DNA from: Lachnospiraceae bacterium
GTDB taxonomy: Bacteria; Bacillota; Clostridia; Lachnospirales; Lachnospiraceae
Direction of reading: 5' to 3'
Length of the DNA: 40,141 bases
Assembly: GCA_018056425.1 (NCBI GenBank)
Contig: JAGPFR010000021.1
Location: 1-40,141, forward strand
Part shown: positions 26,450 to 28,813 of the stretch, piece after piece
Layout of the letters: the number at the start of each line of letters is the position of its first letter
Numbering within the stretch: position 1 is the stretch's first letter
Made by a program: the position numbers and the translations under genes
The notes under the pieces: model-generated
What the model saw: the letters and a program-made list of their open reading frames with translations, nothing else
Told to the model about the DNA's origin: nothing
Database searches by the model: none

Positions 26450-28081
26450 ATGCCTATTACAAGCTATCTGGAGAAGAATGCAAGGGAACACGGGGACGAG
26501 GTTGCTCTTATCGAGCTTAACCCCGAGCAGAAAGAAACCAGAAGGGTCAGCTGGAAAGAGTATTCGCTCATCGAGCAGACCGAAGCACAGCCTTACAGAA
26601 GAGAGATAACATGGCAGGTTTTTGATGAGAAAGCCAACCGTGTTGCAAATATGCTTCTCGGAAGAGGAGTCGGAAGGGGCGACAAGGTTGCGATCCTTAT
26701 GATGAACTGCCTTGAGTGGCTTCCCATCTACATGGGTATTCTTAAGAGCGGTGCTCTTGCGGTTCCTTTCAATTTCCGTTATTCGGCTGATGAGATCGTA
26801 TATTGTGCCGATCTTGCCGAGGTTGATGTTCTCCTTTTCGGACCCGAGTTTATCGGAAGGATCGAATCTTCACTCGATAAGCTTTCCAACAAAGTACTTA
26901 TCTTCGTGGGCGAAACCTGTCCTACTTTCGCAGAGAGCTATCGCGAACTTGTAGCGGACTGCTCGAGCGTAAATCCCGGAATCGAATTAAAAGACGACGA
27001 TGATGCCGCAATCTATTTTTCATCGGGAACCACAGGATTCCCCAAGGCGATCCTTCATAAGCATTTAAGCCTTATGACTGCAGCTAAGGTTGAGCAGAAT
27101 CACCATCAGACATCACGTGATGACTGCTTTCTCTGTATCCCTCCCCTTTATCACACCGGAGCCAAGATGCACTGGATGGGAAGTCTTGTAAGCTGTTCAC
27201 GTGCAGTACTCTTAAAGGGAACCAAACCTTCCTATATATTCGATGCGGTTTCAAGAGAGAAGTGTACCATCGTATGGCTCCTTGTACCCTGGGCTCAGGA
27301 TATTCTCGACTCACTCGACAGCGGAGACCTGAAGATCGAAGACTACGAGCTGTCACAGTGGAGGCTTATGCACATCGGCGCACAGCCCGTGCCTCCCTCA
27401 CTTATCCGCAGATGGATGGCATACTTCCCCAACCATAAATATGACACCAACTACGGTCTCAGCGAATCAATCGGACCCGGCTGCGTTCATCTCGGAATGG
27501 AGAACATTCACAAGGTCGGTGCGATCGGTATTCCGGGCTATGGCTGGGAGTGCAAGATCGTTGATGATAAAGACAACGAGGTTAAACAGGGTGAAGCCGG
27601 AGAACTCTGCGTCAAAGGCGACGGCGTAATGACCTGCTACTACAGAAATCCCGAAGCCACTGCAGAGGTTCTTAAGAACGGCTGGCTTTACACGGGAGAC
27701 GTCGCAATGCGCGACGAGGACGGCTTTATCTACCTTGTAGACCGCAAGAAGGACGTCATCGTATCGGGCGGCGAAAACCTCTATCCCGTACAGATCGAGG
27801 ACTATCTCAGAAAGCACGACAAGATCAAGGACGTTGCCGTTATCGGACTTCCCGATCCCAGACTCGGAGAGATCGCAGGCGCCATCATTTCCATCAAAGA
27901 CGGCATGACCTGCACCGAAGCCGAGATTGAAGAATTCTGCCACGGACTTCCCCGCTACAAACGTCCCCGCAAGATCATCTTCGATGACGTACCCCGCAAC
28001 CCCACCGGCAAGATCGAAAAGCCCCTCCTCCGCAAACGCTACAGCGTCGAGGGCCTCGTCGGTAAGGAAAACGAGTTATAA
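26450..28081 (+). CDS. AMP-dependent acyl-CoA synthetase/ligase (class I adenylate-forming)
   Basis: This 543-residue cytosolic enzyme activates a carboxylic acid as acyl-AMP, usually for transfer to CoA. The motifs are YFSSGTTGFPKA (from residue 189), TNYGLSESIGPG, LYTGDVAMRDEDG, DRKKDVIVSGGENLYP and, near the end, NPTGKIEKPLLRK with the catalytic Lys. The order and length match long- or medium-chain acyl-CoA synthetases; the acid used is unknown. GGGGAG precedes ATG 26450, and the gene is 27 bases behind the M23 peptidase gene. The last 45 codons use CGC/CGT for Arg, unlike the AGA/AGG used earlier in the gene. The unusual hairpin island begins immediately after its stop. Confidence 0.9.
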   Translation: MPITSYLEKNAREHGDEVALIELNPEQKETRRVSWKEYSLIEQTEAQPYRREITWQVFDEKANRVANMLLGRGVGRGDKVAILMMNCLEWLPIYMGILKSGALAVPFNFRYSADEIVYCADLAEVDVLLFGPEFIGRIESSLDKLSNKVLIFVGETCPTFAESYRELVADCSSVNPGIELKDDDDAAIYFSSGTTGFPKAILHKHLSLMTAAKVEQNHHQTSRDDCFLCIPPLYHTGAKMHWMGSLVSCSRAVLLKGTKPSYIFDAVSREKCTIVWLLVPWAQDILDSLDSGDLKIEDYELSQWRLMHIGAQPVPPSLIRRWMAYFPNHKYDTNYGLSESIGPGCVHLGMENIHKVGAIGIPGYGWECKIVDDKDNEVKQGEAGELCVKGDGVMTCYYRNPEATAEVLKNGWLYTGDVAMRDEDGFIYLVDRKKDVIVSGGENLYPVQIEDYLRKHDKIKDVAVIGLPDPRLGEIAGAIISIKDGMTCTEAEIEEFCHGLPRYKRPRKIIFDDVPRNPTGKIEKPLLRKRYSVEGLVGKENEL

Positions 28082-28087
28082 CCCGAG

Positions 28088-28268
28088 AAAAGGCACATCG
28101 AGGCAGTCCTTCACTTTTATAGTTCACCGAGCACACGCCTCGCGGCTCCGCGTTTTTCCGTAGCGGTACTAAATTCGAGCTTCGCAAAGCTCGTTCTCAT
28201 TAAGTACCGACGAAAAAACAAGGGTGCTCTTATGAACCATAAAAGCGAATGCCTGCCTCGATGCTTTT
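28088..28268. repeat. Long imperfect inverted repeat (arms 28088-28126 and 28233-28268)
   Basis: The left arm begins AAAAGGCACATCGAGGCAG and ends CTTTTATAGTTCA. The reverse complement of the right arm begins AAAAGCATCGAGGCAG and ends CTTTTATGGTTCA. The arms match over about 36 bases with a few mismatches and a short indel. They enclose hairpin element copy 1, so the whole stretch is one nested palindrome of about 180 bases. Confidence 0.85.
28129..28229 (+). repeat. Structured hairpin element, copy 1
   Basis: Nested pairings are GAGCAC/GTGCTC (28129-28134 with 28224-28229), GTTTTT/AAAAAC (28152-28157 with 28214-28219), CGGTACT/AGTACCG (28164-28170 with 28203-28209) and the apex CGAGCTT-CGCA-AAGCTCG (28176-28193). 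A small side hairpin (CGCGG/CCGCG, 28141-28152) and a two-base AG bulge (28162-28163) interrupt the left side. Copy 2 repeats the same design in the opposite orientation. Confidence 0.85.
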
Positions 28269-28284
28269 ATCGGCTTCGCCGACT

Positions 28285-28305
28285 CGACCTGCTTACCGCA
28301 GGTCG
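28285..28305 (+). repeat. Short perfect hairpin between the two elements
   Basis: CGACCTGC (28285-28292) pairs perfectly with GCAGGTCG (28298-28305) around a five-base loop. A smaller GGCTTCGCC hairpin (28272-28280) sits just upstream. There is no T-run. Confidence 0.65.
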
Positions 28306-28315
28306 GCACTTGCTT

Positions 28316-28442
28316 TAAGTGTTTGCAAGCGAACCCTTATTTTCCTGTCGGCACTTAGCGAAGGCGAGCGTAAGCGAAGCATGAGCTTAGTACCGCTACA
28401 GGAAAATGCGGAGCCGAGAGGCGCGTTCGCGGGAAACACTTA
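28316..28442 (-). repeat. Structured hairpin element, copy 2 (inverted relative to copy 1)
   Basis: Nested pairings are TAAGTGTTT/AAACACTTA (28316-28324 with 28434-28442), GCGAA/TTCGC (28329-28333 with 28426-28430), ATTTTCCTGT/ACAGGAAAAT (28339-28348 with 28398-28407) and a CGGCACT/AGTACCG stem inside. A two-base CT bulge (28396-28397) and a side region with CGGAGCCG lie on the right arm, mirroring copy 1. Read in reverse complement, it shares CGGCTCCGC, TTTTCC and GTAGCGGTACTAA with copy 1 (28144-28172). Confidence 0.85.
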
Positions 28443-28452
28443 AAGAAAGGGT

Positions 28453-28541
28453 CGACCGTGGCCCGAAGGAGCCCTGAAGTAGAGGTTGGAGTAGGGGCGG
28501 CCGTGACTTAAGAAGCCCTGAAGTAGAGGGTGGAGCAGGCC
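28453..28541 (+). repeat. Two tandem copies of a 44-45 bp direct repeat
   Basis: The copies are at 28453-28497 and 28498-28541. They share the exact core AGCCCTGAAGTAGAGG (28470-28485 and 28514-28529). The left parts begin CGACCGTG and CGGCCGTG, and the right parts contain GGAG-N-AGG. There is no spacer between them, so this is not a CRISPR array. Confidence 0.85.
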
Positions 28542-28567
28542 CGGTCTTAGGGAATGGAAAAAAGTGC

Positions 28568-28597
28568 TTGACGATATGAGCGGGGGTGTGATACATT
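28568..28597 (+). promoter_or_regulatory. Promoter of the rpmG-secE-nusG operon
   Basis: TTGACG (28568-28573) and TACATT (28592-28597) are 18 bases apart, and TG at 28589-28590 gives an extended -10 (TGATACATT). The predicted start is near 28604, about 60 bases before rpmG. Confidence 0.7.
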
Positions 28598-28663
28598 ACT
28601 TTAGCGGCTGATTATAGGCCTATTTTTTTCGCTCTAAGTTTTAACGGGCAGGAAGGAAAGATT

Positions 28664-28813
28664 ATGCGTACAAAGATTACACTTGCTTGCACCGAGTGCA
28701 AACAGCGCAACTACAACACCACCAAGGATAAGAAGACCATGCCTGACCGCATGGAGATCAAGAAGTATTGCAGATTTTGCAAGAAGCATACACTTCATAA
28801 GGAAACAAAGTAA
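28664..28813 (+). CDS. rpmG: Ribosomal protein bL33
   Basis: This 49-residue protein of the large ribosomal subunit begins [12 protein letters not shown]. It has two CxxC pairs (C9/C12 and C36/C39), so it is the zinc-binding form; zinc-free paralogues lack them. The sequence [20 protein letters not shown] is typical for bL33. GGAAGGAAAG precedes ATG 28664. It is the first gene after the repeat island and lies 27 bases ahead of secE, as in many Firmicutes. Confidence 0.96.

Follow-up and report, generated by a model that had tools for sequence, protein, structure and literature searches.

A Widespread Family of ∼160-Base Hairpins in Gut and Rumen Lachnospiraceae Whose Members Appear To Move and Flip While Keeping Their Shape

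The two hairpins that lie within a 40,141-nucleotide stretch of Lachnospiraceae DNA (referred to in what follows as the window) are members of a widespread family of ∼160-base hairpins in gut and rumen Lachnospiraceae. Members of the family appear to move and to flip in the genome; their stems change over much of their sequence, yet the shape persists. The reading that we favor, and that we place only just on the probable side, is that the hairpins are a dispersed, non-autonomous and invertible mobile element of the Lachnospiraceae that is recognized via its folded single strand.

Fold and Covariation of the Hairpins

A sequence-only reading of the window had described two oppositely oriented copies of a bulged hairpin, and this is borne out by folding. 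Copy 1 (28110-28250, plus strand) gives -51.5 kcal/mol against -28.8 for shuffled sequences (sd 3.2, z -7.08) and copy 2 (28300-28460, minus strand) -67.5 against -41.7 kcal/mol (sd 3.9, z -6.55), values that 0 of 200 shuffles reach in either case. The blocks CGGCTCCGC, TTTTCC and GTAGCGGTACTAA, a two-base AG bulge and a side hairpin, listed in that reading as common to both copies, are all present. The hairpins had been placed at 28129-28229 and 28316-28442; they are found there, with a true extent that is longer, ∼28096-28263 and ∼28301-28457, and a repeat search locates the inverted arms at 28096-28126/28233-28263 and 28301-28324/28434-28457. It had also been claimed that the stems differ in sequence and nevertheless pair, which holds, whereas the stems that were compared are not equivalent: the copy 2 counterpart of GAGCAC/GTGCTC is GCGAAC/GTTCGC, and TAAGTGTTT/AAACACTTA, the match originally proposed, lies one stem further out. 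Of the two strands, the complement of that described earlier folds better: the minus strand in copy 1 and the plus strand in copy 2, which makes the pair head-to-head. The features of the locus are as follows.

26450-28081, plus strand: upstream gene (open reading frame), left flank of the insertion site, its end used for synteny; we take it to be AMP-dependent ligase-like
28096-28263, minus (better-folding) strand: copy 1, whole hairpin, from inverted arms and fold; matched by model R1 over 28113-28241 with 138.6 bits
28129-28134: copy 1 inner stem P1, left arm GAGCAC, paired with 28224-28229 in the fold
28137-28146, minus strand: copy 1 side hairpin P2, GCC-GCGA-GGC on this strand, with a GNRA-type loop
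28162-28163: copy 1 two-base bulge in the fold, AG on plus and CU on minus
28164-28209, minus strand: copy 1 conserved apical hairpin CGGTACT...AGTACCG, from fold and alignment A1
28175-28176, minus strand: one half of the copy 1 tandem G.A internal loop, TC on plus, columns invariant in 44 of 44 sequences of A1
28197-28198, minus strand: other half of this internal loop, TC on plus, from alignment A1
28224-28229: copy 1 inner stem P1, right arm GTGCTC, from the fold
28264-28300: spacer separating the two hairpins
28301-28457, plus (better-folding) strand: copy 2, whole hairpin, from inverted arms and fold; matched by R1 over 28317-28446 with 124.1 bits
28329-28334, plus strand: copy 2 inner stem P1, 5' arm GCGAAC, from the fold
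28349-28395, plus strand: copy 2 conserved apical hairpin CGGCACT...AGTACCG, with a U.U mismatch and tandem G.A formed by 28360-28361 with 28383-28384
28396-28397, plus strand: copy 2 CU bulge, from the fold
28413-28422, plus strand: copy 2 side hairpin P2, GCC-GAGA-GGC, from the fold
28425-28430, plus strand: copy 2 inner stem P1, 3' arm GTTCGC, from the fold
28664-28813, plus strand: downstream gene, right flank of the insertion site, used for synteny; presumably rpmG

Between copy 2 and the promoter region of the presumed rpmG the window also contains, at 28466-28544, two 35-nt direct repeats that are 86% alike and 44 nt apart.

One copy of the element is a ∼160-base imperfect palindrome in which a conserved core sits inside an outer stem, mostly of 29-33 bp, that differs freely in sequence between copies yet is complementary. 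On the folded strand the core forms a three-way junction from which a side hairpin with a GNRA-type loop emerges; the core also contains a CU bulge, tandem G.A and a U.U mismatch. Proceeding from the outside in, loose end motifs are followed by the outer stem, stem P1, CC/GG, the variable stem P3 and then the conserved apical part, itself ordered as CGU, the CU bulge on the 3' side, CGGUACU/AGUACCG, the U.U mismatch, three covarying pairs, the tandem G.A and an apical stem-loop. The ends, studied in 123 copies with 26-36 stem pairs, show only loose motifs, ..ACA/G and C/GTNACT, the slash standing at the element boundary; neither a strictly fixed end nor a target-site duplication was established from these motifs and from the comparison of the window site.

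Covariation was evaluated from an alignment of 44 related copies (A1), with the structure used for counting written by hand after the folds. In A1 91.2% of cells are paired, compared with 75.4% after shuffling, double changes occur at 31 of 40 pairs, and the covariation score of 0.409 exceeds the shuffled value of 0.151, with 0 of 500 shuffles reaching it. Structures slid along the alignment score at most 0.115, a control that flatters the structure since it was derived from the same sequences. Covariation no better than chance had been named as grounds for abandoning the original claim; four of five measures lie above the shuffles and the fifth, the number of further pair types, is marginal (68 vs 63.0, with 36 of 500 shuffles attaining 68). 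Alignment is poor in the variable stem P3, where up to 22 of 44 cells of a column are unpaired. In one genome, G140, eight copies have near-identical cores and outer stems that are different but complementary.

It is possible to say which strand carries the structure. In the outer stem, on the strand first modeled, A.C mismatches outnumber G.T by 149 to 49 (191 copies, from 191 of 239 matches), and this excess corresponds to tolerated G.U pairs on the complement. For isolated mismatches the ratio of G.U to A.C on the folded strand is 72:35 (p 4e-4), and it is 38:17 (p 0.006) once similar arms are thinned. The structure covaries on one strand, as for a structured noncoding RNA. Selection on structure, in RNA or single-stranded DNA, as the sequence-only reading had suggested, gains support from the covariation, from the G.U over A.C asymmetry and from the conserved bulges and loops.

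The main rival explanation draws on the same data. It holds that the hairpins are a multicopy structured RNA, the folded strand being transcribed and working as RNA, probably in a protein-bound form, with the spread of copies incidental; we regard this as rather unlikely. In its favor are the G.U excess on the folded strand, the greater stability of that strand with RNA parameters in 171 of 209 copies (-72.5 vs -65.1 kcal/mol), the TC/TC columns (tandem G.A) invariant in the 44 sequences and the GNRA sequence of the side loop in 195 of 214 copies. The last figure comes from a search restricted to GNRA and is without an unbiased control; the loops are GAGA (84), GAAA (38), GCGA (26), GGGA (24), GCAA (14) and GGAA (9), and U never occurs at the second position, which counts against the RNA explanation. 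DNA parameters favor the same strand (173 of 209 copies), so that energies cannot separate RNA from single-stranded DNA, and the earlier suggestion of a structured RNA holds as far as it is testable. Further points against this rival, concerning orientation and flanking signals, are given below.

Pairing may also be kept by resident copies at one site while their sequence changes. In the outer stem of copy B, genomes G028 and G015 share 20 of 32 pairs unchanged, 9 have changed on both sides and remain paired, 2 have changed on one side and 1 is unpaired in one species; gene conversion is possible for this comparison. Divergence at fourfold sites between G000 and the G028 and G015 species amounts to 0.20-0.24 for nusG and 0.37-0.38 for the end of the ligase gene. 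For the window pair, G000 matches G028 and G011 at 83.3% over 144 and 80.7% over 145 bases when swapped and inverted, and at 77.0% over 152 and 80.6% over 103 by position; because the swapped, inverted match is at least as good, positional orthology of G000 with G028 and G011 is uncertain and the case for compensation in place rests on G028 vs G015. Compensated change in resident copies counts against a mobile element, as a transposition substrate alone would not need its pairing kept. Template-switch correction acts readily on long near-palindromes that undergo inversion in place, and such correction from arm to arm would yield compensated changes at resident copies and keep pairing without selection. 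That it accounts for the family is very unlikely in our view, since it predicts neither the G.U over A.C asymmetry nor the conserved unpaired features (bulge, tandem G.A) and side hairpin.

Extent of the Family

Absence of further copies in related genomes would have told against the original claim; copies are in fact present in most of them. A BLAST search with copy 1 gives matches in 23 of 59 genomes, its own included, all of the same genus. A pattern search based on the apical part recovers 57 stretches from named genomes, mostly of rumen and gut Lachnospiraceae; among them are Oribacterium sinus, a Coprococcus MAG and 'Candidatus Crickella merdequi'. Model R1 matches at least 29 of 31 congeneric genomes, at least 111 of 299 genomes of the family and at least 5 of 398 of the phylum, one of the latter, G708, lying outside the family; these are minimum counts, as scoring covered a subset of the first-look candidates, namely 111, 11 and 8 per genome for genus, family and phylum, respectively. 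The number of copies can be high, with 44 R1 matches in the single 2.45-Mb genome G231 and 15 in G708.

The sequence-only reading knew of no named family with this design, and none was found here. Rfam covariance models give 0 matches at E values up to 1 in the window region 27900-28750 and 0 matches at E up to 0.1 at 10 further loci. No description was found in the literature searched (open-access main text), including passages of PMC3733652, PMC8040213, PMC12306157 and PMC3446304.

A second class in the same genus (L012, L022, L033, L034, L039, L040) has only the apical hairpin in common with the main class. Its sites lie in what we take to be core operons, between pta and ackA, beside dxr and before pyrG.

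Several loci carry additional sequence around the element. In G105 (L141-L147) it is contained within a longer palindromic unit, in which ACTTTTCATGGGGTGGGG / CCCCACCCCATGAAAAGT, an extra pair of blocks complementary to each other, lie beyond the usual stem. In UBA3738 (L041 1841-1964 and 5102-5225) the outer arms run into GGGGACGGTTCTCCTGTC-type palindromes, presumably another dispersed repeat. Outer stems of the form AAAACAGCATAGGTC.../...GACCTATGCTGTTTT are seen in Oribacterium sinus (L052 822-953 and 2342-2473), and to our eye they resemble the S. pyogenes Cas9 repeat and anti-repeat; a CRISPR link was rejected, as none of the six pattern matches in that genome is in a CRISPR array.

Mobility, Inversion and the Search for an Enzyme

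Related species differ in what they carry at the insertion site of the window. A pair is found in G000, G011, G015 and G028, a single copy in G009 with its folded strand sense to the presumed rpmG, and G020 is without an R1 match and has a 142-bp gap. The gap in G023 is 177 bp and looks like it holds one leftover arm. In G001, G004, G027 and G030 (L219, L220, L221, L223) no hairpin is present and the site is occupied by ∼830 bp containing an open frame 233-239 codons long.

Inversion in place is seen between species at three loci. The element of L009 and L010 is 99.3% identical over 153 bp on opposite strands, with flanks that agree at 84-86%, 84.1% over 2977 bp; that of L022 and L039, a second-class copy at the presumed dxr locus, is inverted with 94.7% identity vs 79.0% in the flank; and in L021 and L023 the whole pair is swapped and inverted, the inverted matches of 95.2% and 86.9% comparing with positional values of 70.7% and 75.2%. 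Orientation is kept at several other loci, for example L012/L040, L010/L035 and L120/L125. In genome NC2004 one element appears, as judged by eye, to have inserted into another. Larger nested hairpins are present in NC2004 and a near relative (L044, L045, L049, L064, L074), the host element being intact at L044:5286-5410; for the analysis of outer arms and nesting 90 of 125 matches were used, after duplicates, inner-pair gaps and short flanks had been dropped.

A mobile element without its own enzyme had been one of the two ideas put forward from the window, and it is supported by the dispersed copies, by a locus at which some relatives have no copy and others just one, by the nested insertion and by near-identical copies in opposite orientation in different species. 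Being non-coding and dispersed, with empty sites in relatives, the family behaves as MITEs do. In the mobile reading that we favor a trans-acting protein would recognize the single strand in its folded form, as DNA or RNA, and would move or flip the element; single copies and head-to-head pairs would both be insertion forms, and the outer stem would matter only as a stem. A bolder version, which we consider unlikely, is that the element is known by the three-dimensional fold of one strand and not by terminal sequence, which would leave the long outer stem free in sequence provided that it is paired, and is both moved and flipped by an enzyme class new to such repeats, making it a bacterial counterpart of structured, non-autonomous retro- or single-stranded-DNA elements.

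The search for an enzyme centered on Y1 transposases, the established partners of REPs, which are present in 9 of 31 genomes of the genus and absent from G000. Motif matches near Y1 genes were judged by eye, and 0 R1 matches fall within the 15 Y1 loci of the genus. Among the 299 family genomes co-occurrence of Y1 and the element is absent (both 60, element only 51, Y1 only 114, neither 74; odds ratio 0.76, p 0.28), and 10 of 26 genomes with at least 10 scored copies have no Y1 match. When 885 neighboring open reading frames were clustered and the 28 widest clusters read by eye, no recurrent transposase or recombinase and no parent transposon were recognized, the clusters being mostly housekeeping-like. 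No shared neighborhood was apparent by eye in 13 loci of low- or single-copy genomes, which provided no lone-copy ancestral locus. An exact-pattern search of viral contigs and a BLAST search of phages and plasmids with the window pair gave 0 matches and so point to no vehicle, both being blind to diverged copies. The failure to find a linked enzyme among the clusters read, to establish a target duplication or a strictly fixed end, or to match phages, plasmids or viral contigs counts against mobility, as does an element identity that is sometimes below that of the flank (L001/L002; G000 vs G028, 77-83% vs ∼91%).

Genomic Context and Relation to Known Repeats

The context survey started from 214 distinct copies, of which 21 overlapping a predicted open reading frame and 18 without a flanking gene were left out. 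Of the 175 assessable copies 139 lie between tandem, 29 between convergent and 7 between divergent genes, many of them close downstream of a stop codon. This placement is what one would anticipate for a cis-acting mRNA hairpin at gene ends, functioning as a terminator, stability element or insulator, and REPs are distributed alike (passages of PMC3733652). We nonetheless think such a role quite unlikely. Between tandem genes the folded strand runs antisense to its neighbors in 83 cases and sense in 56 (p 0.027; 67 vs 42 for single copies), and pairing is slightly better in the antisense copies (mean 0.895, vs 0.861 for sense; p 0.014). The strand specificity is independent of host transcription, with folded-strand G.U:A.C ratios of 46:19 in sense and 62:15 in antisense copies. 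Promoters are not in excess at the 5' flank of 141 copies, where the best sigma-70 match averages 7.38 of 12 (7.47 on the other side, 7.55 in shuffled sequence), and terminator-like T runs are not enriched, occurring within 20 nt on either side in 7 of these copies. The antisense skew, the asymmetry in both orientations and flanks free of promoter or terminator signal together speak against a role in the flanking mRNA. A structured RNA is disfavored by much the same results, namely the lack of promoter excess and terminator-like T runs, the mixed and antisense-skewed orientation relative to host genes, and the inversion of the element in place.

Pairs of copies less than 600 bp apart are strongly ordered: of 26, 21 are head-to-head (15 loci, orthologues grouped by hand), 5 tandem and 0 tail-to-tail. 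A bias with respect to replication, examined in G231, is not significant, the folded strand lying opposite the G-rich strand 18 times and on the same strand 10 times (p 0.18), with 16 of 44 copies in regions of unclear skew. The GC skew of the G231 contig (L274-L293) changes sign four times and not twice, pointing to a large inversion or a misassembly.

Invertons are stretches of invertible DNA between inverted repeats, and the inverted arms of ∼30 bp and the inversion in place between species are shared with them; in contrast, neither a recombinase (28 widest clusters) nor a promoter excess was found here, and inversion is seen between species and not within one culture. ERIC and other MITEs are short, non-autonomous intergenic palindromes of similar size. 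They differ in that here the stem sequence varies rather than the termini; as regards MITE terminal features, the outer stems vary between copies and only loose end motifs are present.

REP/REPIN sequences, according to passages of PMC3733652, are GTAG- or CGTC-tagged palindromes of 20-40 bp, found mainly between tandem or convergent genes near 3' ends and often as inverted dimers; Firmicutes or Clostridia are not mentioned in those passages. That the hairpins are large REPs or REPINs mobilized by a RAYT-type Y1 transposase is suggested by a GTAG beside an imperfect hairpin, by inverted dimers (the head-to-head pairs above) and by dispersed, intergenic positions at 3' ends, all REP features in the same source. 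We consider this highly improbable, as Y1 is not linked to the element at the 15 loci of the genus and does not co-occur with it in the family genomes. The element is of ∼160 bases as opposed to 20-40 bp, contains a three-way junction and side hairpin, and has outer stems that vary between copies and still pair; the tag is unpaired in REPs, whereas here the GT of GTAG is paired and AG alone is bulged. Three features were tested, namely size, tag pairing and RAYT linkage; as none of them agrees, we have not filed the family as REP.

The repeats bcr1-bcr18 of the Bacillus cereus group are likewise intergenic and MITE-like, some with conserved secondary structure and about half of the copies transcribed (passages of PMC3446304); they are found in other hosts, and the comparison is by description only. 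Candidate structured RNAs from human microbiomes are also palindromic and are predicted on both strands, the examples named in passages of PMC8040213 coming from Bacteroidetes, unlike the Lachnospiraceae considered here. Relative to Rfam and the literature searched, the family is a previously undescribed one within the dispersed non-autonomous palindromic repeats (REP/REPIN, MITE, bcr), distinguished by a large strand-specific fold bearing a junction, by outer stems that vary freely and remain paired, and by frequent inversion in place.

About one third of the sampled Lachnospiraceae genera carry a repeat that is absent from Rfam and did not turn up in the papers searched, and that complicates genome assembly, the prediction of terminators and the calling of invertons in a dominant family of the gut and rumen. 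The family marks sites that flip orientation between species and makes the recognition of large hairpins in Firmicutes a testable question, and the repeat shows that a structured core and its pairing can persist while most of the stem sequence changes.
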